This document shows, one piece after another, positions 21,750 through 36,869 of a stretch of 64,000 nucleotides of DNA; positions within the stretch are counted from its first letter, which is position 1; every line of letters starts with the position of its first letter. Below the pieces are notes generated by a model. The model worked only from the letters and a program-made list of their open reading frames with translations, was not told the DNA's origin and made no database searches. This stretch comes from Actinomycetota bacterium. Lineage in GTDB: Bacteria > Actinomycetota > UBA4738 > HRBIN12. The DNA lies in assembly GCA_035697485.1 (NCBI GenBank), contig DASSCU010000029.1, positions 62,001 through 126,000 of the forward strand, given 5' to 3'. The position numbers and the translations under genes are program-made.

Positions 21750-22679
21750 TCAAGTGGCCGACTCGATCGCGGCCTCGACCACCTGGATCACGGCCCTCCC
21801 GTCGTCGCCGGTCGGCTGCGGCTGGCGGCCCCCGGCGATCGCGTCGAGGAACTCCGCGACCTGCGCTGTGTACATCGGCTGCGTGCAGTGCTCGTAGTCT
21901 TCGCTCGGCTCCAGCCTCGGGAAGATGCGTGCGTAGCCCTTCGTGCCGTAGACCTCGGTGTCGGCTTCCATGCCCTCCTTGTGCGGATGCCACCAACCGC
22001 TCTCGACGATCGAGTTCGTGCCCTGCGACCACGTGATCAGCAGGATCGCGTCGTCGTCGACGTCGTACGCTCCGTACCGGGTGCCGATCTTCGCGCAGAC
22101 CCGGCCGGGCTCCGGGTCGCCGAGCAGGAACCGCGCCGTGTCGATCGCGTGCACCCCCATGTCGACCAGCGCCCCGCCCCCCGAGAGCGCGGGGTCGGTG
22201 AACCAGCCGCTCGGTCCCCAGTTCGCGTGCACGCCGTAACCCCTGGTCTTCACGACCTCACCGAGGCCGCCCGCCGCTATGCGGTCGCGGAGGGCGATCA
22301 CCTCGTCGCGGAACCGCCAGCAGTGCGCCACCATCAGTGATGCCGCCGAGGAGCGCGCCGCTTCGATCATCACGTCGCACTCGGCGAGCGACACCGCCAT
22401 CGGCTTCTCGACCAACACGTGCTTTCCCGCCTCGAGCAGCGCGATCGACTGGGGCGCGTGTAGGAAGTTCGGTGTGGCCACGATGGCGGCGTCGACCTCA
22501 GGATCGCCTGCGAGCTCCTGCCAGTCGGTGGTCACGCGTGGCACGCCGTGCCGCTCGGCGAAGACGAGGGCGCTCTCCTCTCGATGGTTCGCGACGGCGA
22601 CCAGTTCATCCCCGTGCGCCAGCACGCCGCGGGCGTGGAAGTCCTGCACCCACCCGCATCCGAACAACGCCACCCGCAC
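21750..22679 (-). CDS. Gfo/Idh/MocA-family NAD(P)-dependent sugar dehydrogenase
   Basis: A 309-aa oxidoreductase. The N-terminal Rossmann fold begins [18 protein letters not shown], continues with [20 protein letters not shown] and the family hallmark [10 protein letters not shown]; the substrate domain has the [15 protein letters not shown] segment with its catalytic His. Members oxidise hydroxyls of sugars, inositols or their phosphates. It starts at GTG 22679 (GGAGG 7 nt upstream), 32 bases after the permease stop, so it belongs to the ABC importer operon. In this locus it may oxidise the imported sugar or a 3-keto intermediate. Confidence 0.85.
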
Positions 22680-22711
22680 CCAGAGACCTCCGTTCGACGC
22701 GACGAATCCGA

Positions 22712-23650
22712 CTAGCCCTTGACGCCGGTCAGCGTGACGCCCTCGATGAACACCCGCTGAGCCAGGAAGAACAACACGATCACGGGGAGCATGAACAGCA
22801 CCGAGGCGGCCAGCATCAGGTTGTACTCGACCTGGTGGAGCCCTCGGAACTCGTTCAGGCCGATCGCGAGCGTCCACAGCCCGGGGTCATCGCTCAGGAA
22901 CAGCAGGGGTGCGAAGAAGTCGTTCCATGAGTAGAGGAACTGAAACAGCGCGACGGCCGCGATCGCCGGCTTCGCGAGCGGCACGACCACTCGCGTCATG
23001 ATCTGCCACTCGCTCCCGCCGTCCACCCGCGCCGCGTCGGAGAGCTCCTCGGGGATCGTCATGAAGAACTGCCGCATCAGGAAGATCGAGAACGCGTCGC
23101 CGAAGAACAGCGGCACGATCAGCGGCTTGAACGACGGAATCCAGCCGTAACGCGCGAACACGACGTACAGGGGCACGATCGTGACCTGATACGGCAGCAT
23201 GATCGTCGCCAGGATCACGACGAACGCTGCGTTGCGGCCGCGCCACCGCATGCGCGCCAGGGCGTACGCGACCGGGATGCTCGAGACCAGCACGCCGACG
23301 GTCGACAGCGTCGCGATCGTCATCGTGTTGAACGCGTAGCGGATCACCGGCAGCCGTTGGAACACCTCCGCGTAGTTGCTCCACTGGAACGGCCGCGGCC
23401 ACAGCTCGGTGGTCAGCGCCTGGTCGGTCGTCATCAACGACGTGAGGATCACGAACAGGAACGGGAGGGTGAACATCGCGGCGACCGCGATCAACATCGA
23501 GTGGTTCGCGACCGACATCAGGAACCGCCGTCTGCGGATCTCGGGCGGCACCGGCCGCGGCACCAACGGAGCAGCGGGGGCCGGTGCCGGCCCTCGTGCG
23601 ACGGAGACGGTCGGCGTGGCTATCGGAGCCCCCCTCCGTAATGCACCCAT
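22712..23650 (-). CDS. Sugar ABC transporter permease, MalG-like
   Basis: A 312-aa inner-membrane permease. After a proline-rich cytoplasmic N-terminus there are six hydrophobic helices and the EAA loop ELSDAARVDGGSEWQIMTRV followed by VVPLAKPAI, which contacts the ATPase. The end FIEGVTLTGVKG is typical of MalG-type permeases. The likely ATG at 23650 overlaps the upstream permease gene by 31 bp with only a weak GAGG in front. A later start just after the TAG of that gene would again need ACG. It pairs with the 23620-24597 permease and the ATPase at 35670. Confidence 0.87.
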   Translation of the reverse strand: MGALRRGAPIATPTVSVARGPAPAPAAPLVPRPVPPEIRRRRFLMSVANHSMLIAVAAMFTLPFLFVILTSLMTTDQALTTELWPRPFQWSNYAEVFQRLPVIRYAFNTMTIATLSTVGVLVSSIPVAYALARMRWRGRNAAFVVILATIMLPYQVTIVPLYVVFARYGWIPSFKPLIVPLFFGDAFSIFLMRQFFMTIPEELSDAARVDGGSEWQIMTRVVVPLAKPAIAAVALFQFLYSWNDFFAPLLFLSDDPGLWTLAIGLNEFRGLHQVEYNLMLAASVLFMLPVIVLFFLAQRVFIEGVTLTGVKG

Positions 23651-24597
23651 CGCCTCGAGTTCCGCAGGATCAAGAGGGTGCAGATCATCGTCACCAAGAG
23701 CAACACCCACGCGAGCGCCGAGGCATACCCCATCTTGAAGTTCTGGAACCCCATCTGGTAAAGGCGCGACGTGAAGAAGAGCAGCGAGTTCTGCGGGTGG
23801 CCGATCTGGGCGGCATCACCGGTGAGCCAGAAGCTGATCACGTACGGCTGCGTGAAGTATTGGAAACCGTAGATCACGCCGACCACGAGCGAGAAGAAGA
23901 TCACCGGCGATATCAAGGGCAGAGTCACCGAGCGAAACTTCTGCCAACCGCTCGCGCCTTCGATGTCGGCCGCCTCGTAGAGCTGTCGGGGCACGTCGAG
24001 CATGCCCGCGAGGAAGATGATCATCGCGTCGCCGACTCCCCACAGGATCAACAGCACAAGAGTGGGCTTGGACCACTGTGCGTCGAAGAGCCACAGCGGC
24101 GGATCCTTGATGCCGACCGCTCCGAGGATCTGGTTCACGGGGCCCGTCTCCGGGTTGAACAGGAAGAGGAACGCCAGCGCGGCGGCGACGGCCGGCGCGA
24201 GGGTCGGCACGAAGAACAGCGTGCGATAGGCCTTGACCCCCCGCTTTGGGCGCACGAGCAACGAGGCGGTGACGATCGCCGCCAGTATGCGAACGGGCAC
24301 GCCGATCACGATGATCCATGCCGTGTTCTTGATCGCCGTCCAGAAGAGGGGGTCCTTCGTGAACATGAAGCGGTAGTTCTCGAGCCCGATCCAGTGGGGG
24401 GTGGAGAGCAGGTCGTAGCTGGTGAAGGAGAAATACAGGCTGGAGATCATCGGGTAGAGCGTGAACGCGAGGAACCCCACGATCCACGGCGACATGAACA
24501 ACAGCACCAGCAGGTACCGCTTCAGCGTCTGGCGCCGGCGAGCGGGGGACGTTCGCCGCGTCCCCCGCTCGATCGGTGCCGTCGTCGCCTGCGCCGT
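23620..24597 (-). CDS. Sugar ABC transporter permease, MalF-like, apparent ACG start
   Basis: A MalF-type permease with six helices and the EAA loop QLYEAADIEGASGWQKFRSV followed by TLPLISPVI. The first helix begins LLVLLFMSPWIVGFLAFTLYP. The usual basic cytoplasmic tail that precedes it (APIERGTRRTSPARRRQTLKR) is open in frame but has no ATG, GTG or TTG. An ACG at 24597-24595 stands 7 nt after AAGGAG and 11 nt after the binding-protein stop, ideal spacing for a start. The first orthodox start, GTG 24507, would remove the tail and leave no ribosome-binding site. Function is certain, start is not (325 aa from ACG). Confidence 0.85.
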   Translation of the reverse strand, partial: TAQATTAPIERGTRRTSPARRRQTLKRYLLVLLFMSPWIVGFLAFTLYPMISSLYFSFTSYDLLSTPHWIGLENYRFMFTKDPLFWTAIKNTAWIIVIGVPVRILAAIVTASLLVRPKRGVKAYRTLFFVPTLAPAVAAALAFLFLFNPETGPVNQILGAVGIKDPPLWLFDAQWSKPTLVLLILWGVGDAMIIFLAGMLDVPRQLYEAADIEGASGWQKFRSVTLPLISPVIFFSLVVGVIYGFQYFTQPYVISFWLTGDAAQIGHPQNSLLFFTSRLYQMGFQNFKMGYASALAWVLLLVTMICTLLILRNSRRWVHYGGGLR

Positions 24598-24608
24598 GGT
24601 TCCGCTCC

Positions 24609-25970
24609 TTAGAGTTGCGCCTGGTCGAGGGCGTCCTGCGTCTCCTGAGTGGCCCTCTCGAGTCCGCCTTGCAGGTCGCTCGCGTCACCCGTTTGCCAGT
24701 CGGCCGCGAAGTTGACCAAGTACTGCTCCAACTCCTCGCCGATCACCGTCGTCGGCCTGTACGCCGAGTCCGGGTGGTTGAAGGCTTCCATGAACGTGCC
24801 GAACTGCTCGGGCAGGTTCAGATCGGGTGAGTTGATCGCATCGATCGTCGTGGGCACGTTGTTCACGTAGTTCGCCATGTAGACGAGCGTCTCAGTGTTC
24901 GTCGCCAGGTACTTCACGAGTAGCCAGGCCTCCGCGGGGTGTTCGGCCCCCTTCGGGATACCGATGATCGTGCCGCCGACGACGCCCGACCCGTACTGAT
25001 CGGTCTTATCGGGTGCGGTCGGCAAGGGGGCGGTGTCGTAGTTCAGGTCGGGCGCGAAGTCCGCCAGGAAGGCATTCCTCCACTCACCGTCGATCTGCAT
25101 CGCGACCCGGCCCCGCTGGAAGTCCTGTGGCTTGCCCCACTCGTTCCCTGCGCCGGCCACGAACTTCCGAAGCTTGTCGGCACCCACCTGGAAGTCGCCG
25201 TCACCATAGACCTCGGCGATGAAGTCGTGCTGCCACTGGAACATCTCGGCCCATGCGGCATCGGTCGCGTACGCGGGATTCCCTTCCTCGTCGAGGTACT
25301 GCGCGCCGAACATGTGACCGAGGTTCAAGAGGTTACTGCTGCAGCAGTAGTAGTCGGTCACCGGCACGAACCCGGCGACCTTGATCGACCCGTCGGCGTT
25401 GAACTCGGTGAGCGCCTTCGCGTCCTCGGTCAACTCGTCCGTGGTCTTCGGCGGATCGGTCAGACCGGCCTTCTGGAACAGGTCCAGGTTGTAGTAGAGC
25501 GCGGTCGTGTCCGTCAGGAACGGCAGCGAGCACTGCGTTCCTTCGAAGCTCGTGTACGTAAGCGCGGTCTCGGGGAAGATGCTGCGATCGAACCCGGCCT
25601 CCCCGTCGATGTAGGGGTTCAGGTCCACCCATGCGCCCGAGTCACAGAAGCGTCCGACGTTGTCGACCCCGAAGGACAGGAACGCGTCGGGCGGGTTGCC
25701 CGCGTTGATCGCCGCGATCTGCTTCTCCTCGGTCACGCCGCACTTCGCGTCGACCGTGATCCACGGGTACTCGGCCTCGAAGCCGTCCTTGAACGAGTTC
25801 TGCCACTCGTCGCACTCGCGCTTCGAGGTCCATTCCCCCGTGAGCGTCACGGTCACCGGCTCGTTCGACGCGGCGGTGTCCACGGTGGGAGCGGGCTCGT
25901 CCCCGCCACCAGCCGTACACGCCGCGGCCACGAACGCGAGCACGGCCGTCGCCACCACCAAAGGCCTCAT
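24609..25970 (-). CDS. Sugar ABC transporter substrate-binding lipoprotein
   Basis: A 453-aa family 1 carbohydrate-binding lipoprotein. The signal MRPLVVATAVLAFVAAAC has a lipobox with acylated Cys18, followed by a disordered linker and the binding protein fold (VTVTLTGEW; EAEYPWITVDAK; NPPDAFLSFG; TTALYYNLDLFQKAGL, a typical hinge region). It captures the substrate outside the membrane. Six or more cysteines, including a CC pair, are unusual for this class. ATG 25970 is preferred over the adjacent ATG 25973 because AGGGAGG is 6 rather than 3 nt away. It follows the ROK gene by 86 bases. Confidence 0.87.
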   Translation of the reverse strand: MRPLVVATAVLAFVAAACTAGGGDEPAPTVDTAASNEPVTVTLTGEWTSKRECDEWQNSFKDGFEAEYPWITVDAKCGVTEEKQIAAINAGNPPDAFLSFGVDNVGRFCDSGAWVDLNPYIDGEAGFDRSIFPETALTYTSFEGTQCSLPFLTDTTALYYNLDLFQKAGLTDPPKTTDELTEDAKALTEFNADGSIKVAGFVPVTDYYCCSSNLLNLGHMFGAQYLDEEGNPAYATDAAWAEMFQWQHDFIAEVYGDGDFQVGADKLRKFVAGAGNEWGKPQDFQRGRVAMQIDGEWRNAFLADFAPDLNYDTAPLPTAPDKTDQYGSGVVGGTIIGIPKGAEHPAEAWLLVKYLATNTETLVYMANYVNNVPTTIDAINSPDLNLPEQFGTFMEAFNHPDSAYRPTTVIGEELEQYLVNFAADWQTGDASDLQGGLERATQETQDALDQAQL

Positions 25971-26056
25971 CATGCGCCTCCCTCCCCCGGTCGTTCCCGG
26001 GATCTCTTCCGAGCTGCTGATGATCGGTTGTACGTTCGTGAGCGATCTTCCGTGCA

Positions 26057-27253
26057 TCAGGCCGGCACCTTCCCTCTGGCGAACAGCTGGTCCTGCGCCG
26101 CCTGCAGCGCCATGAACACCGAGCCGTACAGCGTGGCCTCCTCGCGGAGCACCGATGCTTCGACCCGTGGTCGGAACGGCGAGATCGAACGCAGCTCCCG
26201 TTCCACCGGTTCGAGCAGGAGGTCTCCGTTGCCGCCGATGCCGCCGCCGAGGATCACGAGCTCCGGATCGACGACCGAGGCAACCGCCGCGATCGCGAGC
26301 GCGATGCGCTGGGCCTCCATGCGCACGACCCGCCTGGCTTTCGCGTCACCCGCGCGAGCCGCGTTGAACACGCGCTTGGCGGTCAGCGGCGGCGACATGC
26401 CGAGCTTCCGCGCGGTCGCGACGACCCCGGCGGCGCTCGCGGCGGCGTCGAGCGCACCCCGGCGGCGGCTCGTCGGGTCCTTCAGATCGGTGCCCACCAG
26501 CGGCATGTACCCCACCTCACCGGCAGCCCCGGTGCTGCCGCGGAACAGCTCGCCGTCGAGCACCAGCCCCATGCCGACGCCCGTGCCCAGGTGCAGGTAG
26601 ACGAAGTTGCCGACACCCTTGCCGAGCCCGTGCCACTGCTCACCGAGCGCCGCCAGGTTCACGTCGTTCTCGAAGGCGGTCTTGGTGCCGAGCTCGGCCT
26701 GCACCATCTCGACCAGGCCTTCTCGCCCCCACCCCGGCAGGCTGTATGCGAGCGCCACCTGACCACGCTCGGGCTCGAACACGCCGGGACTCCCGACCGT
26801 GGCGAACGTCACCTGTCGCCACCTGATGCCTGCGTCGGCCGCGAGCCCGTGGGCGATCGCGCCGATCTGCGTGATCAACGTCCGCGCGCTCTTCACTCGC
26901 GCCCGCTCGTCCCGGCGAGCGACGAACTCCCCGGTGACATCGGCGATCGCGGCCCGGACCCAGTCCCGTCCGACATCGATGCCGACGACCCAGCCGGCCC
27001 GGGGGTTCAACTCGTACAAGATGGCCGTGGGTCCCTTCCCGCCCTTCGACCGCCCCGCCTCGTGGACGAGGCCCGCCCGCTCGAGCCCGGTGAGCGCCTG
27101 CGAGACCGTCGGCTTGGACAAGGCGGTCTCGCGTGCGATCTGGGCTCGGGAGATCGGCCCGATGCGCAGCACGCAATCCAGCACGGTGCGTTCGTTGATC
27201 GCACGAAGCAGGCTGGGCGTGCCGGCGGCCGGAGCCTTCCGGTCGAGGTGCGT
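26057..27253 (-). CDS. ROK-family sugar-responsive repressor, apparent ACG start
   Basis: A 398-aa protein. The N-terminal winged HTH (LLRAINERTVLDCVLRIG; ISRAQIARETALSKPTVSQ) is followed by a ROK sugar-kinase-like domain (VVGIDVGRDWVRAAIAD; HLGTGVGMGLVLDG; ELVILGGGIGG). The Cys-rich zinc motif usual in ROK proteins (CxCGxxGCxE) is absent; the equivalent loop runs GYMPLVGTDLKDPTSRRRG. The only well-placed start is ACG 27253-27251, 4 nt after GGGGAGG. Longer forms would start upstream of the predicted promoter (TTGACT, 18 nt, TAGCAT) and read through the AGGAAACTTTCCT operator. It probably represses its own operon and the SIS/GH4 operons. Confidence 0.85.
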   Translation of the reverse strand, partial: THLDRKAPAAGTPSLLRAINERTVLDCVLRIGPISRAQIARETALSKPTVSQALTGLERAGLVHEAGRSKGGKGPTAILYELNPRAGWVVGIDVGRDWVRAAIADVTGEFVARRDERARVKSARTLITQIGAIAHGLAADAGIRWRQVTFATVGSPGVFEPERGQVALAYSLPGWGREGLVEMVQAELGTKTAFENDVNLAALGEQWHGLGKGVGNFVYLHLGTGVGMGLVLDGELFRGSTGAAGEVGYMPLVGTDLKDPTSRRRGALDAAASAAGVVATARKLGMSPPLTAKRVFNAARAGDAKARRVVRMEAQRIALAIAAVASVVDPELVILGGGIGGNGDLLLEPVERELRSISPFRPRVEASVLREEATLYGSVFMALQAAQDQLFARGKVPA

Positions 27254-27273
27254 CGCGCCTCCCCTCAGTGCAA

Positions 27274-27286
27274 AGGAAACTTTCCT
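27274..27286. promoter_or_regulatory. ROK operator, 13-bp palindrome, copy 1
   Basis: AGGAAACTTTCCT, a perfect palindrome about a central C, flanked by AA on both sides (AA-site-AA). The same 13 bases occur at 32943-32955. It lies 8-20 nt downstream of the predicted start of the ROK transcript and over the -35 region of the divergent aldolase promoter. Confidence 0.75.
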
Positions 27287-27300
27287 AACTATTCGCGCGG

Positions 27301-27330: not shown

Positions 27331-27377
27331 GACAACCGGCGGCCGCCCCGACCGGCGCACGGAGGTCACTGGCAACG

Positions 27378-27992
27378 ATGACGCTCCTCGATGCAGGACC
27401 GCTGGTCGGGATCATCCGCTATCGGGCAACGGCCGACCTTGTCCCGGTCCTCGAGGCACTGGCCGACGCAGGGATACCGCTCCTGGAGGTCACGCTCGAC
27501 ACGCCCGGGGCCCTGGACGCGATCGCATCGGTCGCGGCAACCGGCACCACGATCGGCGCGGGCACCGTGCTCGACGCCGATCAAGTGCGGGCGAGCGCCG
27601 ACGCCGGAGCCGGATTCGTCGTGTCGCCCGGACTCGTCGACGAGGTGGTCGAGCAGGCGACCACCCTCGGCGTCGAGCCGATCCCCGGTGTGCTCACGCC
27701 GACCGAGCTGCTGCGAGCTCGTGGCCTGGGCGCCTCGGCCGTGAAGGTCTTCCCCGCAGGTCCGTGTGGCGGGCCGGAGCTGATCCGCGCCCTGCGCTCG
27801 CCGTTCCCTGGGGTCGGGATGCTCGCCACGGGCGGTATCGCCGTCGACGACGTCGGCGCCTATCTCGCCGCCGGCGCGACGGCGGTCGGTCTCGGGGCGG
27901 CGCTCACCGGACACCGTCCGCCCGAGACACCCGCCGAGCTCGACGAGCTGCGAGCCCGCGCCGCTGCCGCGCTCGAGGCGGCGACGAGATGA
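27378..27992 (+). CDS. eda: 2-keto-3-deoxy-6-phosphogluconate/galactonate aldolase
   Basis: A 204-aa class I aldolase of the KDPG family. LVGIIRY is the N-terminal strand, the catalytic Glu is in LLEVTLDTPGA, and the Schiff-base Lys is in SAVKVFPAG; the phosphate-binding GTVL and LATGGI loops are present. It splits KDPG (or the galacto form) into pyruvate and glyceraldehyde 3-phosphate. The ATG at 27378 lies 12 nt after GGAGG, a long spacing. The stop overlaps the next start (ATGA). Together with the kinase it closes an Entner-Doudoroff-type route for the sugar acid made in this locus. Confidence 0.87.
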   Translation: MTLLDAGPLVGIIRYRATADLVPVLEALADAGIPLLEVTLDTPGALDAIASVAATGTTIGAGTVLDADQVRASADAGAGFVVSPGLVDEVVEQATTLGVEPIPGVLTPTELLRARGLGASAVKVFPAGPCGGPELIRALRSPFPGVGMLATGGIAVDDVGAYLAAGATAVGLGAALTGHRPPETPAELDELRARAAAALEAATR

Positions 27993-28888
27993 GTGGCACG
28001 ACCTACGACGTGATCGGGCTCGGCGAGACGATGCTCTCCCTCGTCGCCTACGACGGGCCGCTCGAGACCGCGACGGCGTTCTCCGGGACTCACGGCGGCG
28101 CCGAGAGCAACGCACTCGTCGCCCTCTCCCGTCTGGGGTTCCGCACTGCGTGGATCAGCAGCCTGGGGGACGACCCGGCCGGAACGCGCGTGCGCGAGGC
28201 CCTCGAGCGAGAAGGGGTCGATCTCCGATGGGTCCGAACCGACCCAGCGCGACCCACGGGTCTGATGCTGCGCGATACTCGGGGAGGGGTGCGCTACTGG
28301 CGTACCGGATCGGCCGCGAGCGCGCTCGACCCAGCCGCGCTGGACGGGGTGCCGGTCGCCGACGCCCGCGCCGTGCTCGTGACCGGGATCACGGCGATGC
28401 TCGGGGCGGGGCCGCAGGCCGCGGCGATCGCGCTCCTCGACCGCGCCGGCGGGCTCCGCGCCGTGGACCCGAACCTCCGTCCGGGCCTCTGGGGATCCGA
28501 TCGCGCACACGAGCTCGTGATGCCGCTGCTGGAACGCTGCGACGTGGTGCTCGGCGGCGAGCGAGAGCTCGCGTTGCTCGTGGGCGGCTCGGGCGCGGGG
28601 TCGGCCAGGCGCTGCGCGGAGCTGGGGCCCAGCGAGGTCGTCGTGAAGCGCGGCGCCGACGGCGCCGCGGTCCTGGAGCCCGACGGCGCCTGGCGCGAGC
28701 TCCGTCCGCCGACCTCCGACGACGTCGACCCCGTCGGCGCCGGCGACGCGTTCAACGCCGGCTACCTGGCTGCCCGGCTCGACGGGGCATCGTGCCTCGA
28801 GTCGCTGCGAGCGGGAGCGGCGGCAGGAGCGGCGGCCGCGGGCGTCCTCGGCGATGTCGGTGCGCGCAAGCAGGACGTCGATGTGTGA
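27989..28888 (+). CDS. kdgK: PfkB-family kinase, probably 2-keto-3-deoxygluconate kinase
   Basis: A 299-aa ribokinase-like enzyme: N-terminal VIGLGETMLSLVAYDGPLE, the substrate-recognition glycines FSGTHGGAESNALVALSRLG, and the C-terminal ATP/anion-hole motif DVDPVGAGDAFNAGYLAARL with the catalytic Asp. The GETM start and GGAESN motif resemble KdgK rather than fructokinase. Coupled by ATGA to the aldolase gene, it would phosphorylate 2-keto-3-deoxygluconate to KDPG. The short pair is transcribed away from the ROK gene from an overlapping promoter. Confidence 0.83.
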   Translation: MSGTTYDVIGLGETMLSLVAYDGPLETATAFSGTHGGAESNALVALSRLGFRTAWISSLGDDPAGTRVREALEREGVDLRWVRTDPARPTGLMLRDTRGGVRYWRTGSAASALDPAALDGVPVADARAVLVTGITAMLGAGPQAAAIALLDRAGGLRAVDPNLRPGLWGSDRAHELVMPLLERCDVVLGGERELALLVGGSGAGSARRCAELGPSEVVVKRGADGAAVLEPDGAWRELRPPTSDDVDPVGAGDAFNAGYLAARLDGASCLESLRAGAAAGAAAAGVLGDVGARKQDVDV

Positions 28889-28943: not shown

Positions 28944-30245
28944 TCATCGGCCCCCCCAGCCCGCAGGGAGGTGCTCGGCGTGCGCTTCGAGGTAGGACGC
29001 CACGAGCGCATCCGCCAGGTTCACGCTCCGAACCAGGGGGTGCAGGGCCAGGGCCGTCACCGCCAGCTCGCGATCTCCCGTGACCGCGGCCTCGGCGGTC
29101 ATCGCAGCGTGCACCGCGACCTGTCGGACCAGCCCGCTCACCTCGACGGGGAGCGCTCCTTGCGGGACAGCCGAGACGGTTCGGCCGTCGATCGTCGCAG
29201 GGGTCTCGACGATCGTGCCGTCGGGGAGGTCGTCGACCTGACCGGCGTTCGGGAGGTTCAGGATCGCTCGCCGGTGCGTGCCGGTCAGCATCGCGGCCAT
29301 CACGGAGACGGCGAAATCGCCGTGCGCCTCGCTCGCACGTGCCATCGACGGGCGCGGATCCTCGGCGTCGGCCTCCCGTCGGTAGCTCTCGAGCACCGAG
29401 GGGAGGATCGCCATCACCTCCTGCGCGCGCGTGCGACCCTGCGCTCGCTGCTCGGCCAGCACCTCGTCGTGGAAGAAGAAGTACTGCATGTACTCGCTCG
29501 GCACGTGGTGCAGCAGGCGGAACAGCTGCACGATGCGCCGCTCGGCGACGGACGTCAGGCGTTCCAACGGCAGGGAGTCGAGCAGCGTCCACAGCTCGGT
29601 CGTGACGTCCTCGCTCGCCACCCGCACCCCCCGCGTGAACGTCATGTGGTTCGTGCCGCACGTGTCGAGCGCGATCGCATCAGCGTCGATGTCCAACAGC
29701 CTCGCGAGGAACCGGGCCTCGCCGGCGGTTTGATCGCAGAGGCCGAGGAACGGCAGCGCCGGGCCGAACCGACGCATCGCTTCGCTCACGACCTGCACCG
29801 GGTTCGTGTAGTCGAGGAGGACGGCCTCCGAGGCAGCGAGCCTCCTCATCTCCTCGGCGACCTCGAGCACGATCGGCACCGATCTGAGGGCCATGGCGAA
29901 CCCGCCGGGTCCAGCGGTCTCCTGTCCGATCACGCCGTGGTCGATCGCGATGCGCTCGTCGAGGTGCCGGGCCACCAGACCACCCGGCCGGAAGGCCGCG
30001 AGGACGACGTCGGCGCCCTCCAGCGCGGGGGACCGATCGCCATGAGCCTCTACCCGAACGCCTCGAGCTCCCCTCGAACGCAGGATGCTGCCCGTCAGAC
30101 GCCGTTGCAGGTCGAGCGCGCCGGTGTCGACATCCTGCAGCACCAGGGTCGCGTCCCCGAACGCTTCGGCATGATGGGCGAAGGCGAACGCGATCCCCGG
30201 CATGTAGGCCGATCCCCCGCCGATCACGACGACGCGTGCGCCCAT
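28944..30245 (-). CDS. Glycoside hydrolase family 4 enzyme (first copy, divergent)
   Basis: A 433-aa NAD-dependent GH4 enzyme. It has the nucleotide-binding start VVVIGGGSAYMPG, the family motif GVIGQETAGPGGFAMALRS, the LDYTNPVQVVSE segment, and the metal-ligand regions GLCDQTAGE (Cys) and DTCGTNHMTF (His). GH4 enzymes break glycosidic bonds through oxidation at C3 and elimination, needing NAD and Mn. The CDQTAGE and CGTNH motifs differ from the CNVxIG/GLNH of the second copy, so the substrate probably differs. A TAGCGT box ends 7 nt before the ATG with no Shine-Dalgarno, indicating a leaderless transcript. Confidence 0.83.
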   Translation of the reverse strand: MGARVVVIGGGSAYMPGIAFAFAHHAEAFGDATLVLQDVDTGALDLQRRLTGSILRSRGARGVRVEAHGDRSPALEGADVVLAAFRPGGLVARHLDERIAIDHGVIGQETAGPGGFAMALRSVPIVLEVAEEMRRLAASEAVLLDYTNPVQVVSEAMRRFGPALPFLGLCDQTAGEARFLARLLDIDADAIALDTCGTNHMTFTRGVRVASEDVTTELWTLLDSLPLERLTSVAERRIVQLFRLLHHVPSEYMQYFFFHDEVLAEQRAQGRTRAQEVMAILPSVLESYRREADAEDPRPSMARASEAHGDFAVSVMAAMLTGTHRRAILNLPNAGQVDDLPDGTIVETPATIDGRTVSAVPQGALPVEVSGLVRQVAVHAAMTAEAAVTGDRELAVTALALHPLVRSVNLADALVASYLEAHAEHLPAGWGGR

Positions 30246-30364: not shown

Positions 30365-31600
30365 ATGGCTGAACTCGCAGTGAATGGGGGGACCCCCGTG
30401 CGCTCGACGCCGTACCCTGCGTGGCCCGCGCCCGACGATGAGTACGTCGAGGCCGTGTCCGAGGTCGTGCGAGGCGGCGAGTGGGGAGGCTTCCCTGAGC
30501 CCGGCGTGAACGCGACGGCGTTCGAGGAGGCCTTCGCCGCGTACCAGGGCGCTCACCACGGGGTCCTGATGATGAACGGCACCGTGACGATGGAGGTCGC
30601 GTGCAAGGCGCTCGACGTCGGATGGGGCGACGAGGTGATCGTGCCGGCCCTGACGTTCGCCGCCACCGCGTACGCACCGATGGCCGCGGGCGCCCTGCCC
30701 GTGATCGTGGACGTCACCCCCGAGACGTGGTGCATCGACCCTGATCTCGTGGAGGCGGCCATCACGCCGCGCACGCGGGCGATCATCCCGGTGCACCTCG
30801 GTCACCAGATGGCCGACATGGACCGGCTGACCGAGATCGCCGACCGGCACGGATTGGCCGTGATCGAGGACTGTGCACATGCCCACGGGCAACAGTGGCG
30901 TGGCCGCGGCGCCGGATGCATCGGAGACTTCGGCTCGTTCAGCCACCAATCGTCGAAGATCCTCACCTCCGGCGAGGGCGGCACGCTCCTGACGAACGAC
31001 GACACCCTGGCACGGCGCGCACACTCGATCATCGACTGCGGGCGTGCGAAGGACACCGAGGAGAAGGAGTTCACGTTCGGGTCGAACTACCGGCTCTCCG
31101 AGCTGAACGCCGCACTGCTCGTGGTCGCGATGCGGCGGTTCCCAGGACAGCAGGAAGAGCGCGCAACCAACGGCCTTCGCTTCGAGCGGTTGGCGGCCGA
31201 CATCCCAGGCGTGCGGGTCATGCCCCGCGACCGGCGCATCACGCGATGGAGCTTCTACAACTACATCCTGGCGATCGACCCGCGTGCGTTCGGGGGCGCC
31301 ACGAACGAGACCGTCTGCGCCGCCCTCGAAGCTGAGGGCATCCCGGCGGAGGTGCAGTACCCGCCGATGAGCCGTTACGAGCTGTTCCAGCCGTCGCTGT
31401 CACGTCTCCCCGTGGCCGTGGAGCACGCCGACCGCCTCGACCCACGGGGGATGTCGTTCCCCGTCGCAGAGGCCGCCGGGCTCCGCGAATCCGTCTACCT
31501 CATGGAGGCGGTGTTCCGAGACGGGGAGCGCGGGGTGCAGGACGCGGTCGACGCCCTCGCGAAGGTGCAGCGCCACGCGTGGGAGCTGCCGAAGGACTGA
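30365..31600 (+). CDS. DegT/DnrJ/EryC1/StrS-family sugar aminotransferase
   Basis: A 411-aa PLP enzyme. The opening AELAVNGGTPVRSTPYPAWP is like StsC/inosose-type members; MMNGTVTMEVACKAL and PALTFAATAYAP are cofactor-side loops, VIEDCAHAHG the pyridine-nitrogen Asp region, and SHQSSKILTSGEGG contains the Schiff-base Lys. The family transfers an amino group to or from keto-sugars or keto-cyclitols. Finding it between two GH4 genes, whose chemistry goes through 3-keto sugars, is unusual for a catabolic cluster. The ATG at 30365 is preceded by GAGAGGAGAGC; an in-frame GTG at 30308 adds 19 unconserved residues. Confidence 0.85.
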   Translation: MAELAVNGGTPVRSTPYPAWPAPDDEYVEAVSEVVRGGEWGGFPEPGVNATAFEEAFAAYQGAHHGVLMMNGTVTMEVACKALDVGWGDEVIVPALTFAATAYAPMAAGALPVIVDVTPETWCIDPDLVEAAITPRTRAIIPVHLGHQMADMDRLTEIADRHGLAVIEDCAHAHGQQWRGRGAGCIGDFGSFSHQSSKILTSGEGGTLLTNDDTLARRAHSIIDCGRAKDTEEKEFTFGSNYRLSELNAALLVVAMRRFPGQQEERATNGLRFERLAADIPGVRVMPRDRRITRWSFYNYILAIDPRAFGGATNETVCAALEAEGIPAEVQYPPMSRYELFQPSLSRLPVAVEHADRLDPRGMSFPVAEAAGLRESVYLMEAVFRDGERGVQDAVDALAKVQRHAWELPKD

Positions 31601-31609
31601 TCGAGAGCG

Positions 31610-32905
31610 TCAGGCCGGGAAGAACCTGGGCAGGTGGCGCTCGTTCGCCGCAAGCAGCGCATCGAGCAGGGGCCGGGCTCGTTCGTAGTCCCCGACCAGG
31701 GGATTCGCCAGCAGTCCCCTGAGAGCTGTGGCCCGGCTGCCCGAGGTGGCAGCATCGATCGTGAGGCGCTCGTAGGCCTTCGCGTGCTGGACCAGCCCGG
31801 CCATCTCGGGGGCGAGCGGGTCGGTGGCGATGGCGTGTGCGCCGGAAGCGTCGATGCGAGCCGCGATCTCCACGACGTCGTCGTCGGGCAGGTTCGGGAT
31901 CGCACCGGCGTTCGGCAGGTTCACGACCTGCACGTCGCCGGTGCCCGCATGCAGCGACGCCACCAATGCCGCAGCAGCGTCGCTGTAGAAGGCGCCTCCA
32001 CGCTCCTCGAGCAGTTCCGGCTTCGTGTCGAGGGTGGGATCCTTGTAGAGCTCGAGCAGCCCGGCCTCGATCTCCATGACCTCCTTGGCCCGGTTGCGCC
32101 CACCGCGCAGCTCGCGCATCACCCGGTCGGTCAGGTAGTAGTACCGCAGGTAGGACGAGGGGATCGCGCCCAACGTCCGGGCGATCTCCAACGGCATCTC
32201 GTCGTCCAGCTCGTCCAGGTACCCGCGAACCGCAGGGCTTGGGTCGACGGCCGGATCCAGCAGCTCCGGGAGGCGATCGACGCCGTCGACGAGCACCTTG
32301 CGTTCCCACGTGAGGTGATTCAGCCCCACGTGGTCGAGCCCGACGTGACCGGGGTCCACGCTGAAGATCTCGGCGAAGTCGCGCTGGAACCCGATCGCAA
32401 CGTTGCACAACCCGATCGCCCTGTGCCCCTCGTCGAGCAGCGCCTGGGACACGAGTCCGGTCGGGTTCGTGAAATCGACGAACCACGCTTCCGGCGCGCC
32501 TCGTTCCGCCGTGAGCTGCGCGAGCTCGAGCACGACCGGCACCGTGCGCAACGCCTTCGCGAACCCCCCAGGGCCGGTCGTCTCTTGACCGATGCACCCG
32601 AACTCGAGCGGGATCGTCTCGTCGAGGTAGCGCGCCTGATTCCCTCCGACCCGGAGCTGCACGATCACGAAATCGGCGCCTTCGATCGCCTCGAGGCGGT
32701 CGGTGGTGAGACTCAGCCGCCCAGTCCAGCCGACCTTGCGCATCATGCGGTCGGCGAGCGCGCCGACGACGTCGAGGCGCTCCCGATCGATGTCGAACAG
32801 CACCAGCTCGTCGACCGGGAGACGGTCGTCGCGTCGCACGAACCCTTCCACGAGCTCAGGGGTGTAGGTGCTCCCGCCGCCGACGACCGCCACCTTCACA
32901 CCCAT
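31610..32905 (-). CDS. Glycoside hydrolase family 4 enzyme (second copy, LicH/CelF-like)
   Basis: A 431-aa GH4 enzyme close to the 6-phospho-beta-glucosidase branch: NAD motif VAVVGGGSTYTPELVEG, QLRVGGNQARYLDETIPLEF followed by GCIGQETTGPGG, and metal/substrate motifs GLCNVAIG and DHVGLNHLTW. It hydrolyses glycosides by a redox-elimination route through a 3-keto intermediate with NAD and Mn. No PTS is present, so phosphorylated substrates would have to come from the local BadF-type kinase. A TACGAT box ends 9 nt before the ATG and shares its TA with the divergent SIS promoter; the ROK palindrome lies just beyond. Confidence 0.87.
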   Translation of the reverse strand: MGVKVAVVGGGSTYTPELVEGFVRRDDRLPVDELVLFDIDRERLDVVGALADRMMRKVGWTGRLSLTTDRLEAIEGADFVIVQLRVGGNQARYLDETIPLEFGCIGQETTGPGGFAKALRTVPVVLELAQLTAERGAPEAWFVDFTNPTGLVSQALLDEGHRAIGLCNVAIGFQRDFAEIFSVDPGHVGLDHVGLNHLTWERKVLVDGVDRLPELLDPAVDPSPAVRGYLDELDDEMPLEIARTLGAIPSSYLRYYYLTDRVMRELRGGRNRAKEVMEIEAGLLELYKDPTLDTKPELLEERGGAFYSDAAAALVASLHAGTGDVQVVNLPNAGAIPNLPDDDVVEIAARIDASGAHAIATDPLAPEMAGLVQHAKAYERLTIDAATSGSRATALRGLLANPLVGDYERARPLLDALLAANERHLPRFFPA

Positions 32906-32924
32906 GGTGCCGGCATCGTACACT
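32895..32924. promoter_or_regulatory. Divergent, overlapping promoters of the GH4 and SIS operons
   Basis: Plus strand: TTCACA (32895-32900), 18 nt, TACACT (32919-32924), then 7 nt to the SIS ATG at 32932. Minus strand: TACGAT (32920-32915), then 9 nt to the GH4 ATG at 32905. The two -10 boxes share the TA of atcgTAcact, as at 27301-27310. Confidence 0.6.
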
Positions 32925-32931
32925 CGCGGCG

Positions 32932-34002
32932 ATGAAATCGTTAGGAAACTTTCCTGACCCATTCATCGCCGAGATCGCCAGCCAACCGGACGCCGTGCGG
33001 CGAGCGGCGGCCGGCCTCGACGACCAGCGCGCCGTCCTCGACGATATCGCCCATGCATCCGCCGGGCGGACCCTCGTCTTCACCGGGATGGGGAGCTCCT
33101 ACGACGCGTGCTACCCGGCCGTGGCCGAGCTTGCCCGCGCGGGCATCGCGGCGGTCATGCTCGACGCCGCGGAGCTCCTGCACTTTCGGACGGGGATGCT
33201 CCGCCCATCGACGATGCTCGTCGCGGTAAGCCAGTCGGGCGAAAGCATCGAAGTGGTGCGGGTGGCCGCCGGTCTCGCCGGACAGGCCGAGCACCCGGTG
33301 GTGGTCGCGATCACGAACGGCACCGCGAACACCCTCACCTCGCTGGCCGATCTCTCGGTCGACACCGGAGCTGGTGAGGAGACAGGCCCCTCGACGATGA
33401 CCTTCGCAGGCTCCCTCGTCGTCCTCGGCGCGCTCGCCCGGATGCTCGGGGGAACCCCGCCCGGCGAGGCGCTCGAGCGCCTCGCGACCGACGCCGAGCT
33501 GGCCGCCGTGGCGATCGAATGCCTGCTGGGCGACGCCGATCTGCCGGAGCGGCTGGTGTCCTGGCTGGGCGAGCGCGAGACGATGGTGATCCTCGGCCGA
33601 GGACCGGGCCGGGCCGCAGCGGAGATGGGCGCACTCACGATCAAGGAAGCCGTGGGCATGCCGGTGGAGTCCCTCCAGACCGGCCAGTTCCGTCACGGAC
33701 CACTGGAGCTCGCGGGACCGGGCCTGGCCGCCGTGGTGATCGCGACCGAGCCGGAGACCCTCGAGCTCGACCTGACCCTGGCCGAAGAACTCCTCGCGAC
33801 AGGGGCGGGTGTCCTGCTGGTCACGGCCGACGATCAGCCCGGATCGGGAGCGATGCGAGTCGCGACGGGCCCGCTCGAGCGCGCCCTCGCTCCCGCGGTG
33901 TCGATCCTCCCCTGCCAGCTGCTCGCCTGGCGGCTCGCCGGACTCCGCGGCCGTGACCCCGGGGCCTACTACCGCGCGGCCAAGGTGACCACCCATGAAT
34001 GA
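32932..34002 (+). CDS. SIS-domain aminosugar-phosphate enzyme (GlmS/AgaS isomerase-deaminase type)
   Basis: A 356-aa protein with two SIS domains: first TLVFTGMGSSYDACYPAVAE and LVAVSQSGESIEVVRVA, second VILGRGPGRAAAEMGALTIK with EAVGMPVESLQTGQFRHGPL. The layout matches the isomerase half of glucosamine-6-phosphate synthase and AgaS-type deaminase/isomerases, without the glutaminase domain. It would isomerise or deaminate an aminosugar phosphate. The ATG lies 7 nt from a TACACT -10 box and has no Shine-Dalgarno, so translation is probably leaderless; codons 4-8 are the ROK operator itself. First gene of an overlapping four-gene operon. Confidence 0.82.
   Translation: MKSLGNFPDPFIAEIASQPDAVRRAAAGLDDQRAVLDDIAHASAGRTLVFTGMGSSYDACYPAVAELARAGIAAVMLDAAELLHFRTGMLRPSTMLVAVSQSGESIEVVRVAAGLAGQAEHPVVVAITNGTANTLTSLADLSVDTGAGEETGPSTMTFAGSLVVLGALARMLGGTPPGEALERLATDAELAAVAIECLLGDADLPERLVSWLGERETMVILGRGPGRAAAEMGALTIKEAVGMPVESLQTGQFRHGPLELAGPGLAAVVIATEPETLELDLTLAEELLATGAGVLLVTADDQPGSGAMRVATGPLERALAPAVSILPCQLLAWRLAGLRGRDPGAYYRAAKVTTHE
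32943..32955. promoter_or_regulatory. ROK operator, 13-bp palindrome, copy 2, inside the SIS coding start
   Basis: AGGAAACTTTCCT, identical to 27274-27286. It begins 11 nt into the SIS gene and lies about 12-24 nt downstream of its predicted transcription start, and over the -35 position of the divergent GH4 promoter. Confidence 0.75.
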
Positions 34003-34645
34003 GCGCCGGGGGGGTGTCGTCGGCTCGACAGAGGGCTCCGACTTCCGGGTCGCGCTGACCTTCGACGCGGAGCATCCCGATCGGCAGTGGTGTCCTCCCG
34101 ACGCCGCCGAACGCATCTTCGACACCCTGCGTGACCTGGAGGTCCGCGCAACCGTGTTCGTGCAGGGGCGGTGGGCGCAAGCGCACCCCTCGATCGCCGC
34201 ACGCATCGCCCACGAGGGGCACCTCGTCGGGCACCACTCGCACTACCACGCGCGGATGCCCTTGCTGACCGACCCGGGCCTCGCAGCCGACATGGCCGAT
34301 GCGGCCGAGGCGATCGTCGCCGCGACGGGCACCGACCCGCGGCCATGGTTCCGGTGTCCATTCGGTGCGGGGCACGACGACCCCCGCGTGCTGGCGATGC
34401 TGGCTTCCCTCGGCTACCGCAACGTGCACTGGCACGTCGAGCTCGAAGACTGGGAACCGTGGCGCACCGGTACCGCGATCGCCGACGACACGCTCGAGCG
34501 GGTGACACGACACGGCGACGGGGCCGTCGTGCTTCTGCACAGCTGGCCGGGCGGCACGGCTGACGCATTGCGACCGATCGTCGACGGGCTCCGCGACGCC
34601 GGCGCTTCGTTCGTGACGGTCGACGAGCTCGAGGAGCTCCCGTGA
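33995..34645 (+). CDS. NodB-domain polysaccharide deacetylase, altered metal motif
   Basis: A 216-aa NodB-homology protein. Motif 1 is ALTFDAEHPDR rather than TFDDG, so one of the two usual aspartates is missing while the first remains. Motif 2 is GHHSHYHARM (H-x3-H type), motif 3 FRCPFGAGHDD and motif 5 AVVLLHSWPGG. The family removes N-acetyl or related acyl groups from sugars in a metal-dependent way. There is no signal peptide, so it would act on imported mono- or oligosaccharides. The ATG overlaps the SIS stop by 8 bp; its stop overlaps the kinase start (GTGA). Confidence 0.8.
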   Translation: MNERRGGVVGSTEGSDFRVALTFDAEHPDRQWCPPDAAERIFDTLRDLEVRATVFVQGRWAQAHPSIAARIAHEGHLVGHHSHYHARMPLLTDPGLAADMADAAEAIVAATGTDPRPWFRCPFGAGHDDPRVLAMLASLGYRNVHWHVELEDWEPWRTGTAIADDTLERVTRHGDGAVVLLHSWPGGTADALRPIVDGLRDAGASFVTVDELEELP

Positions 34646-35670
34646 GCCGCCACCCGGCACTCCTCGCGGTCGACGGAGGCGGATCGAAGATCGACGCCGC
34701 GCTGTTGCAGCGGGACGGGACCGTGCTGGGAGCCTTCAGGATCCGTACCCAGGAGTTCGAGGAGAACGGTGGCCCGCAGCACATGGGCCAGGTGCTCGAT
34801 GCCGTGCATGGCGCGTGCAGAGACGCGCAGATCGATCTCGCCCTCCCCGTCGCCGATCTCGGCGTGTACTGCCTCGCCGGCGCCGACCTTCCGGCAGACG
34901 ACCGGAAGATCCTGCGGTGGCTGCGGGCGCAGCGCCTCACCCAGGAGAGCGTCTTACGCAACGACACGTTCGCCGTCTTGCGGGCCGGCACCGAGCGGCA
35001 CTGGGGTGTCGGCGTGGTGTGCGGCTTCGGCACGAACTGCTCCGCCGTGGCCCCCGACGGCAGGATCACCCGGTTCCCCGCGGTCGGTCCGATCTCGGGT
35101 GACTGGGGAGGTGGTTCCGACGTGGGCGAGGCGGCACTCTGGTACGCGATCCGGTCCGAGGACGGTCGTGGTGCGAAGACCGCCCTCGCCGAACTCGTAC
35201 CGGCGCACTTCGGGCTCCGACGACCTCGTCAGGTGCTCGAGGCCGTGTATTACGGACGCGTGGAGGAGGACCGCCTCGTCGAGCTCGCGCCGCTCGTGTT
35301 CAGCGCCGCATCGGCGGGTGACCCCGTGGCCCGGAGCGTCGTGGATCGGCAGGCCGATGAGATCGTCGCGATGGTCACCACCGCGATCAAACGACTGCGC
35401 ATGCAGAAGCTGGATGTCGACGTCGTGCTCGGCGGGGGCATCTTCCGCACCGACGACGACGCCTTCTTCCGTCGCATCCGCGACGGCGTGCACGAGGTCG
35501 CGCCGGCCGCGAGTTTCACCGTCTTGACCGACCCCCCCGTGATCGGGGCCGCGTGGCTGGGTCTCGACAGGCTCGGCGCGCCGGCGGCCGCCTACGTCCG
35601 CGCGCGCCGTGCCTTGACCCATGCTCGGCTGGCCGCACACACTCATGCCCGACGGAAGGAGCACCGCTGA
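34642..35670 (+). CDS. BadF/BadG-type ATPase, probably N-acetylglucosamine-like sugar kinase
   Basis: A 342-aa actin-like ATPase. Phosphate 1 motif LLAVDGGGSKIDAALL, the domain-linking LRNDTFAVLRAGT, the phosphate 2 loop GVVCGFGTNCSAV, SGDWGGGSDVGEAAL and adenosine motif DVVLGGGIFR match the BadF/BadG/BcrA family, whose sugar branch is N-acetylglucosamine kinase (NAGK). It would phosphorylate the imported aminosugar before the SIS enzyme and GH4 enzymes act. It starts at GTG overlapping the deacetylase stop and ends in TGATG with the ABC ATPase gene. Confidence 0.8.
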   Translation: MSRHPALLAVDGGGSKIDAALLQRDGTVLGAFRIRTQEFEENGGPQHMGQVLDAVHGACRDAQIDLALPVADLGVYCLAGADLPADDRKILRWLRAQRLTQESVLRNDTFAVLRAGTERHWGVGVVCGFGTNCSAVAPDGRITRFPAVGPISGDWGGGSDVGEAALWYAIRSEDGRGAKTALAELVPAHFGLRRPRQVLEAVYYGRVEEDRLVELAPLVFSAASAGDPVARSVVDRQADEIVAMVTTAIKRLRMQKLDVDVVLGGGIFRTDDDAFFRRIRDGVHEVAPAASFTVLTDPPVIGAAWLGLDRLGAPAAAYVRARRALTHARLAAHTHARRKEHR

Positions 35671-36869
35671 TGGCCGACATCGTGCTGGACCGCGTCTCGA
35701 AGGTCTTCGGCACCGACGTCGTCGCCGTGAATGACGTATCACTCGAGATCGGTGACGGGGAGTTCATGGTCCTCGTCGGACCGTCGGGGTGCGGCAAGTC
35801 CACGATCCTGCGCATCCTCGCCGGACTCGAGGAGGTCACAGCCGGCGAGATCTCCATCGGGGGAACGCAGGTGACCGACCTGCCGCCGAAGGACCGCGAC
35901 ATCGCGATGGTGTTCCAGAACTACGCGCTCTACCCGCACATGACGGTCGAGCAGAACCTCGGCTTCGGCCTGCGGCTGCGAAAGACCCCGAAGGGTGAAC
36001 AACGCACGCGGGTCGCCGACGCCGCGAGGATCCTGGGCCTGGTCCCGCTCATGGGCCGTAAGCCCGCGGAACTCTCGGGCGGCCAGCGGCAGCGCGTCGC
36101 GATGGGTCGGGCGATGGTCCGAGAGCCTCGTGCCTTCCTCATGGACGAGCCGTTGTCCAACCTCGACGCGAAGCTGCGCGTCCAGATGCGAGCGGAGCTC
36201 TCCCGCCTGCACGAGCGTCTCGGCACGACCACGGTGTATGTGACCCATGATCAGGTCGAGGCGATGACGCTTGGCCAGCGGGTCTCGGTGCTGAAGGACG
36301 GTGTCCTCCAGCAGGTCGACACGCCGCAGAACCTCTACAACCACCCGGCGAACCTCTTCGTCGCCGCCTTCATCGGCTCACCGCCCATGAACCTGGTCGA
36401 AGCTGACGTGAGCGAGAAGACGATCTCCTTCGGCGGCTTTTCGCTGCCGCGCCAGGACTCCGACGGGCTCCAGGACCGCGTTGGAGGCCGGGTGATCCTG
36501 GGCATCCGTCCCTCGGACCTCGAGGACTGCGACGTCTGGCACACCGAGGACCTCCCGACCCTCGAGGTGCGCGCCGAGGTGACGGAGGAACTGGGCTCGG
36601 AGGTGAACATCATCTTCCCCGTCGAGGCCCCGCCCGTGCTGACCGAAGACGTGATCGCCGCGGCCAGTGACGAGTCGGACCACGACAACATCCCGCTGAT
36701 CGCCGACGAGCAGCAGGTGTGCCGGTTCTGCGCGCGCGTGGACGCCCGCACGCACTGCAGGCCGGGCGACACCGTGCGTCTGTCAGTTGACCCGGCTCGG
36801 TTCCACTTCTTCGACCGGGAGAGCGGTCTCGCGGTCGGCGCGCGGAGCTCGGCGCCCGTCGGGGCGTGA
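35670..36869 (+). CDS. Sugar ABC transporter ATPase, MsmK/UgpC-like, with cysteine-rich C-terminus
   Basis: A 399-aa ATPase: Walker A GPSGCGKSTILR, Q-loop VFQNYALYPHMTV, signature LSGGQRQRVAMGRAM, Walker B AFLMDEPLSNLDAKLR and switch His VTHDQ. The C-terminal TOBE region is longer than usual and holds the cluster CRFCARVDARTHC plus an acidic insert (ASDESDHDN), which I have not seen in MsmK/UgpC. It probably drives the permeases at 22712-24597, in a different operon but under the same ROK palindrome. The start ATG overlaps the kinase TGA (TGATG). Confidence 0.87.
   Translation: MADIVLDRVSKVFGTDVVAVNDVSLEIGDGEFMVLVGPSGCGKSTILRILAGLEEVTAGEISIGGTQVTDLPPKDRDIAMVFQNYALYPHMTVEQNLGFGLRLRKTPKGEQRTRVADAARILGLVPLMGRKPAELSGGQRQRVAMGRAMVREPRAFLMDEPLSNLDAKLRVQMRAELSRLHERLGTTTVYVTHDQVEAMTLGQRVSVLKDGVLQQVDTPQNLYNHPANLFVAAFIGSPPMNLVEADVSEKTISFGGFSLPRQDSDGLQDRVGGRVILGIRPSDLEDCDVWHTEDLPTLEVRAEVTEELGSEVNIIFPVEAPPVLTEDVIAAASDESDHDNIPLIADEQQVCRFCARVDARTHCRPGDTVRLSVDPARFHFFDRESGLAVGARSSAPVGA

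Follow-up and report, generated by a model that had tools for sequence, protein, structure and literature searches.

How should a sugar aminotransferase of the DegT/DnrJ/EryC1/StrS family (DegT), to our knowledge a family known only from biosynthesis, be understood when its gene stands among genes for the import and cleavage of a sugar? The question is raised by positions 21750-36869 of a 64,000-nucleotide stretch from an Actinomycetota bacterium (the window, meaning the whole stretch analysed; positions 62001-126000 of contig 29 in a genome of 3.41 Mb, 64 contigs and 95.6% completeness). The Pfam families within this locus are Gfo/Idh, two ATP-binding cassette (ABC) permeases, a sugar-binding protein, ROK, 2-keto-3-deoxygluconate 6-phosphate (KDPG) aldolase, two GH4 enzymes, DegT, SIS, a polysaccharide deacetylase, BadF and a MalK-type ATPase, which, together with a sugar kinase detected by NCBIfam below cut-off, bears out the gene set listed in a preliminary description of this DNA. 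The locus is a real, conserved and coherent regulon with a core like the ChbF/ChbG route of chitobiose use minus the phosphotransferase system (PTS), and the DegT-Gfo/Idh pair is its distinctive part. We put at about an even chance the reading in which this ROK-controlled regulon serves the catabolism of an N-acylated amino-sugar beta-glycoside, with the DegT and Gfo/Idh enzymes removing or moving a ring amine.

The genes, previously described as two operons, form about six strand-wise units. The first, on the reverse strand, comprises the genes for a ROK-family transcriptional regulator (26057..27265; PF00480 1.7e-43, with winged-helix matches), an extracellular sugar-binding protein (24609..26057; PF01547 2.7e-31), ABC permeases of the MalF type (23620..24507; PF00528 2e-12) and the MalG type (22712..23680; PF00528 2.1e-19) and, as its end gene, a Gfo/Idh/MocA oxidoreductase (21750..22679; PF01408 7.6e-29, PF22725 2.5e-25), all starts but that of the binding protein being approximate. 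Against PDB sequences the binding protein gives general sugar-binding matches that carry no specificity. The second unit (forward) contains the KDPG aldolase and a 2-keto-3-deoxygluconate (KDG) kinase-like gene, the third to fifth are the single genes GH4a (reverse), DegT (forward) and GH4b (reverse), and the sixth (forward) encodes the SIS, NodB, BadF and MalK proteins, the last a sugar ABC ATPase (35670..36869; PF00005 5.8e-33, PF17912 1.3e-10). Motif scans place a predicted operator palindrome at two of the three divergent promoters, namely ROK/KDPG aldolase (27272..27288, 13-base core 27274-27286) and GH4b/SIS (32941..32957, core 32943-32955). The repeat noted earlier is thus real: with one mismatch allowed, AGGAAA(C/G)TTTCCT occurs at exactly these two places in the entire genome (none for the backward-read control), and the two places in the window correspond to four strand-wise matches at up to two mismatches, against 0.10 expected from shuffles. 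The GH4a/DegT promoter in the window has no palindrome, the best match there carrying 9 mismatches out of 17. A 17-base form of the palindrome (up to four mismatches) is found in nine of the 11 loci compared, the window included, and was not found in G022 or G321; eight of the nine have two sites and L045, where the contig is cut, has one. In six of these nine (G042, G106, L042, L043, L044 and L046) one site lies directly between the ROK and DegT genes, so that DegT is very likely a member of the predicted regulon in these relatives, while the interval from ROK to DegT in the window is taken up by the KDPG genes and GH4a. With a ROK domain joined to a helix-turn-helix, and a repeated palindromic predicted operator confined to the genes in question, the locus is, on its sequence features, a genuine ROK regulon, and the earlier view of a single ROK-linked catabolic unit holds. 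Palindrome 2 overlaps codons 3-9 of the SIS frame if the ATG at 32932 is the start, which suggests that the SIS transcript may be leaderless or differently started.

The core of the regulon is best approached through GH4b (31610..32905, reverse; PF02056 1.5e-50, PF11975 1.4e-50; 5c3m, 367 bits), a protein of the 6-phospho-beta-glucosidase type with a CNVA motif and both the N- and C-terminal GH4 domains, as in the ChbF/BglT type. It is 38% identical to ChbF of E. coli K-12, compared with 29% for GH4a (28944..30245, reverse; PF02056/PF11975), the second GH4 enzyme, which has a CDQT motif. According to the available portion of PMC13197890, the -1 subsite of Salmonella ChbF is made up of C172, N150, H203, Y258, T113, E112, R96, R282 and N173, and ChbF cleaves glucosamine 6-phosphate (GlcN6P)-N-acetylglucosamine (GlcNAc) only once ChbG has taken off the N-acetyl group. 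The E. coli enzyme has the same nine residues at identical numbers, and all nine are found in GH4b when it is aligned to E. coli ChbF (string RETNCNHYR). Across the 34 GH4 rows from DegT loci in that alignment, this string is identical in 26; GH4a (RETNCDHYR) and the corresponding L045 enzyme depart from it at a single position, with D for the second N; in five rows this position is H, accompanied by further changes, and one row is a fragment. Since all nine ChbF residues are kept, GH4b very likely requires a 6-phosphorylated substrate, and the earlier proposal of phosphorylation before cleavage by GH4 chemistry gains a specific footing. Of the genes in and around the locus scanned with Pfam (18784-40240), none was recognised as belonging to a PTS, and the likely source of the phosphate is therefore the BadF-type amino-sugar kinase (34642..35670, forward; PF01869 8e-23), which in PDB and NCBIfam searches is closest to GlcNAc and N-acetylmuramic acid (MurNAc) kinases (top PDB match the MurNAc/GlcNAc kinase 8zo3, 1.7e-18).

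The BadF gene is preceded by those for a SIS-domain isomerase/deaminase resembling the GlmS isomerase (32932..34002, forward; PF01380 6.1e-25; 1moq 1.6e-21; KEA, RHGP and KVTT motifs) and a NodB/CE4 N-deacetylase (33995..34645, forward; PF01522 1.5e-25; HSHYH and RCPF motifs), and GH4b and the SIS-NodB-BadF-MalK unit diverge from a single predicted operator. As in the enterobacterial chb system, a ChbF-type GH4 6-phospho-beta-glycosidase and an N-deacetylase are thus joined in one regulon, and on sequence GH4b, deacetylase, kinase and SIS enzyme together look like a ChbF/ChbG route that dispenses with the PTS; the earlier statement that the locus does not match chitin pathways was for this reason too strong. 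The differences from chb are an ABC importer and BadF kinase in place of the PTS, NodB in place of the YdjC-family ChbG, the ROK regulator and the additional DegT and Gfo/Idh genes. The window genome has no GH20 and no GH18 match, and a chitin degrader was rejected; this means that the organism does not itself break chitin down, and no more than that. Elsewhere in the genome there is one weak NagB homologue (166 bits, cut-off 237), and the SIS enzyme is not necessarily the sole GlcN6P deaminase.

The DegT gene (30365..31600, forward; PF01041 4.7e-91) encodes a protein with Lys198, and K198 and D169 are invariant in 13 DegT sequences. Its nearest solved relatives by sequence are RbmB (249 bits) and BtrR (232 bits), followed by Fic25 and AHBA synthase, and the nearest PDB entries are 5w70, 5w71 and 2c81. 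An AlphaFold model (pLDDT 79.5, pTM 0.81, 13 sequences) compares with BtrR, RbmB, Fic25 and AHBA synthase at Z 41-43 and with other sugar or nucleotide-sugar aminotransferases at Z 37-40, a small margin among 50 listed entries, families outside the list not being thereby excluded. By sequence and by modelled fold (5w71_B: Z 42.8, rmsd 2.6, 376 aligned residues, 34% identity) the protein is nearest to the 2-deoxy-scyllo-inosose aminotransferases BtrR and RbmB, and like them it keeps the catalytic lysine that binds pyridoxal phosphate (PLP). Unlike theirs, its surroundings are catabolic, with an importer and GH4 enzymes, and no 2-deoxy-scyllo-inosose synthase family occurs among the Pfam-scanned genes of the locus. 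The Gfo/Idh protein, with DgpA and 1,5-anhydrofructose reductase as its top PDB sequence matches and iolG as its top NCBIfam model (142 bits, cut-off 355, several Gfo/Idh relatives scoring in the same range), reads as a generic member of its family. Inositol catabolism was rejected as a function of the locus, iolD being above cut-off in just two of 11 genomes and not in that of the window. DegT and Gfo/Idh proteins form biosynthetic pairs in kanosamine (NtdA/NtdC) and O-antigen (WbpE/WbpB) synthesis; the pair here is alike in composition, whereas NtdA and WbpE match the window DegT more weakly than BtrR and RbmB do. We know of no route that explains DegT plus Gfo/Idh in such a setting, and in the open-access literature, by titles and the starts of abstracts (subscription papers lying outside this scope), no description of the combination was found.

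The linkage is conserved. In a DegT protein search of 396 genomes of the same phylum (E 1e-60 or better), DegT was found in 27 genomes including the host's own, 12 of the others having it at 71% identity or more. Eleven of the 12 carry GH4 beside DegT, and ROK is there in 11 as well; the exceptions are G022, which lacks GH4, and G224, the contig of which ends soon past DegT. A search of genome contigs gave at least 549 confirmed stretches, and a wider set of 90 DegT loci consists of 76 of the best 80 of these, the window and 13 others, with L054-L057 left out as the same contigs, to judge by length, as G213, G022, G037 and G013, and with two contigs of one isolate (L067 and L115) both included. 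Fourteen of the 27 DegT genomes are in this set; those left out are G224, G117 and G234 (short loci), G226 and G246 (DegT with weak MalK matches only) and the more distant G169, G048, G340, G305, G060, G116, G020 and G303, and plasmid rows also stand outside it. Neighbours were called with purpose-made hidden Markov models (E 1e-8) within about 11 kb, a threshold at which the BadF gene of G321 is missed; for many of the 90 loci the contig is short, and Fisher values on the counts ignore relatedness. On these terms GH4 is found near DegT in 31 of the 90 loci, Gfo/Idh in 38, BadF in 30 and ABC permeases in 41. The pairing of DegT and Gfo/Idh proposed earlier is thereby supported, the two lying less than 400 nt apart (between stop-to-stop frames) in 19 loci. 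For scale, any GH4 at all occurs in 33 of 119 genomes across the phylum, and a random 22-kb stretch would be expected to hold 0.037 GH4 genes even at the density of the richest listed genome (G098, six in 3.6 Mb). A branch of the midpoint-rooted DegT tree (support 99/97) sets 71 rows apart, among them 30 of the 31 with GH4 linkage; this group spans Actinomycetota, Chloroflexota, Myxococcota and Bdellovibrionota, together with a single locus under the label Bacteroidota. The GH4 label changes 14 times on the tree, compared with 26.6 in shuffles, and the linkage is hence not one clade. Within the clade (70 loci), BadF accompanies 23 of the 30 loci with GH4 and seven of the 40 without, and 38 of the 70 have at least 5 kb on either side, 18 of these with GH4. 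Genes annotated as '6-phospho-beta-glucosidase', 'ATPase' and DegT also lie near one another on the Chloroflexota plasmid CP069395.

Other DegT neighbourhoods were seen along the way. A glycerol-1-phosphate-dehydrogenase-like Fe-ADH_2 protein is encoded near DegT in 12 of the 90 loci (L064:2863-3876 and 11 others). In eight Anaerolineae/Chloroflexi loci (L079, L081, L089, L092, L097, L099, L101 and L103) DegT occurs with a short-chain dehydrogenase/reductase, an amidase and an L-lactate permease, another conserved neighbourhood. In L070, recorded as an isolate of Singulisphaera sp. GP187, DegT and its neighbourhood group with Roseiflexaceae, and the label of this metagenome-assembled genome may be wrong. 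The plasmid pHS1 of Sodalis praecaptivus (L138, 375015-394265) carries DegT, a PIG-L deacetylase and a 2-deoxy-scyllo-inosose synthase in what resembles a small aminoglycoside-type biosynthetic cluster.

The N-deacylation step that had been proposed finds support in the recurrence of several unrelated deacylase-type families beside DegT and GH4: NodB in six of the 90 loci, YdjC in eight, a ceramidase-like family in 18 and PIG-L in nine. A deacylase-type gene is present in 31 of the 90 DegT loci and in 18 of the 31 with GH4, and two different families occur together in ten (ceramidase-like with YdjC in five, ceramidase-like with PIG-L in five), one reading of which is that two N-acyl groups would have to be removed from the substrate. 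The ceramidase-like proteins (15 rows) keep a THTHHGPDT motif and have GGMM.PD where ceramidases have GDVSPN, and their activity is for that reason uncertain. In Chloroflexota and Myxococcota DegT is linked to such a ceramidase-N-terminal-like protein, which lacks the canonical serine motif (L096:7355-8593 and 17 other loci), and the linkage is also seen on a haloarchaeal plasmid (Haloprofundus, L137).

Taken together as a catabolic pathway, with the substrate, the order of the steps, the direction and target carbon of the DegT reaction and the roles of the SIS and BadF enzymes as we infer them, the ABC importer would take up an N-acylated amino-sugar beta-glycoside, the NodB enzyme would strip the N-acyl group and the BadF kinase would provide the 6-phosphate, the task of the PTS in enteric bacteria. 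GH4b would then split the 6-phospho glycoside by oxidation, elimination, hydration and reduction, in the manner of ChbF acting on GlcN6P-GlcNAc; a GH4 mechanism of four steps for 6-phospho substrates is described in the available portion of PMC10628242. The SIS enzyme may deaminate the released GlcN6P, while DegT would exchange a freed ring amine for a ketone in a catabolic transamination and Gfo/Idh would reduce this ketone, or run in a coupled oxidative direction, on a sugar beyond the reach of an ordinary deaminase. KDG kinase and KDPG aldolase could handle an acid by-product in the window genome. A more specific version, which we regard as possible though rather improbable, is that a 3-amino-sugar biosynthetic pair runs backwards here, DegT transaminating a ring amine after N-deacylation to give a 3-keto sugar that Gfo/Idh would reduce or GH4 use directly; it is hinted at by the co-occurrence of two deacylase-type families noted above, and its target would most likely be C3 of a di-N-acylated 2,3-diamino or 3-amino sugar.

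Several observations weigh against the catabolic reading. The characterised relatives of DegT that we know of are biosynthetic, the direction of its reaction cannot be read from the sequence, and the Z margin favouring the small-molecule aminotransferases is, as noted, small. In the window, DegT lacks a separate operator. The close relative G022 has DegT, ROK, Gfo/Idh and SIS and no GH4 genome-wide, and 59 of the 90 DegT loci lack GH4, which means that the function of DegT need not be tied to it. The concern raised in the preliminary description, that DegT homologues might sit in unrelated loci, meets with a mixed answer, being allayed for the close relatives and standing for two wider subclades, with GH4 in none of eight loci of an Anaerolineae DegT group and none of seven of a Roseiflexaceae-type group, the latter (several on short contigs) having none of the partners counted. 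The usual CE4 motif is TFDD, and the window NodB reads TFDAEH, without the second Asp. Finally, a BLAST search with ChbG (1e-5) against the frames of the 90 loci gave no match, so that the YdjC proteins of the DegT loci are only distant ChbG kin; one of them scores 56 bits against the NCBIfam chitin disaccharide deacetylase model (cut-off 227).

The simplest competing explanation is plain use of diacetylchitobiose or a GlcNAc disaccharide by NodB, BadF, GH4b and SIS, with DegT and Gfo/Idh loosely attached and serving another function. The ChbF-type subsite and ChbF identity of GH4b, the need of the ChbF/ChbG route for deacetylation (available portion of PMC13197890), the kinship of BadF to GlcNAc/MurNAc kinases, the YdjC-family deacetylases in eight of the 90 loci and a GH20 near DegT in L072 and L084 all suit it. 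Gfo/Idh, however, adjoins DegT at least as frequently as GH4 does (38 and 31 of 90), and L058, L060, L062 and L063 combine an importer with DegT and Gfo/Idh without GH4 on the stretch examined; the lack of GH20 and GH18 speaks only to chitin breakdown by the organism itself. We consider this explanation unlikely.

Still less probable is an aminocyclitol aglycone, in which DegT would reverse a scyllo-inosamine/inosose reaction and Gfo/Idh act as an inositol-type dehydrogenase on a GlcNAc-inosamine pseudodisaccharide. It draws on the closeness of DegT to 2-deoxy-scyllo-inosose aminotransferases, the iolG model heading the Gfo/Idh matches, the PIG-L deacetylases near DegT in nine of the 90 loci and a 35% DegT homologue near the 2-deoxy-scyllo-inosose synthase gene on the Sodalis plasmid; the iolG score is nevertheless far under its cut-off and similar to those of several Gfo/Idh relatives, and the distribution of iolD given above argues the other way. 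A biosynthetic or salvage cassette, with DegT and Gfo/Idh making an amino sugar that GH4 and the kinase recycle, strikes us as very doubtful: a Pararhizobium plasmid does carry Gfo/Idh with DegT in a cluster of the O-antigen type, and no related ABC permease was found nearby in L104, L106, L108, L116, L122 and L123 (Myxococcota/Bdellovibrionota), but in the window Gfo/Idh closes the ROK-importer unit, DegT and ROK have a common predicted operator in six relatives, and there is no glycosyltransferase or nucleotidyltransferase among the Pfam-scanned genes.

Within the catabolic reading the fate of the product had been assigned to KDPG, which the comparison does not sustain. The KDPG/KHG aldolase (27378..27992, forward; PF01081 1e-42; TIGR01182 169 bits, cut-off 156) is found in the window alone among the 90 loci, and the PfkB-type, KDG kinase-like sugar-acid kinase (27992..28888, forward, start approximate), detected solely by NCBIfam KDG/KDGal kinase models, all below their cut-offs (NF041332 150 bits, cut-off 440), in the window and G061 alone (E 1e-12), with weaker tblastn matches to this arm (about 30%) in L069 and L115. 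On these sequence comparisons the arm is peripheral, and it was rejected as part of the core. Beside the KDG kinase, G061 has a D-serine-dehydratase-type PLP gene, a distant homologue (34%) of which lies 3' of MalK in G013; the G061 protein, used as the query rather than OngC itself, had no match in the window genome at 1e-15. In the available portion of PMC9537276, OngC of the oxidative chitin route shares the D-serine-dehydratase fold type and converts GlcN1A to KDG by deamination. The Pseudoalteromonas ong pathway described there is similar in its deacetylation and its end at KDPG, has a KDG kinase for which the window offers the KDG kinase-like gene as a candidate counterpart, and differs from the locus in its SSS-family transporter, MurR/RpiR regulator and D-aminoacylase-type deacetylase; genes of the OngC kind occur in the G061 and G013 loci. 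Overall, the interpretation given in the preliminary description is partly supported, with a 3-amino or keto sugar as a candidate substrate.

The locus is flanked on both sides by molybdenum hydroxylase genes (large subunit; XdhC, FAD and 2Fe-2S subunits) at 18784-21147 (reverse) and 37577-40240 (forward). Elsewhere in the same genome (G000:C11:41475-49278; L001 and L003) two more GH4 genes are separated by about 7 kb, one of them accompanied by MalF/MalG/MalK-like genes.

If the catabolic reading is correct, a family of sugar aminotransferases examined for its part in the synthesis of antibiotic and cell-surface sugars would have a catabolic role, and a widespread one should the biosynthetic pair indeed run backwards. 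It would also mean that the ChbF/ChbG logic operates without a PTS in mostly uncultured lineages of the Actinomycetota, Chloroflexota (including a Limnocylindrus record) and Myxococcota, and would provide a concrete list of enzymes for how bacteria may recycle unusual N-acylated amino sugars.

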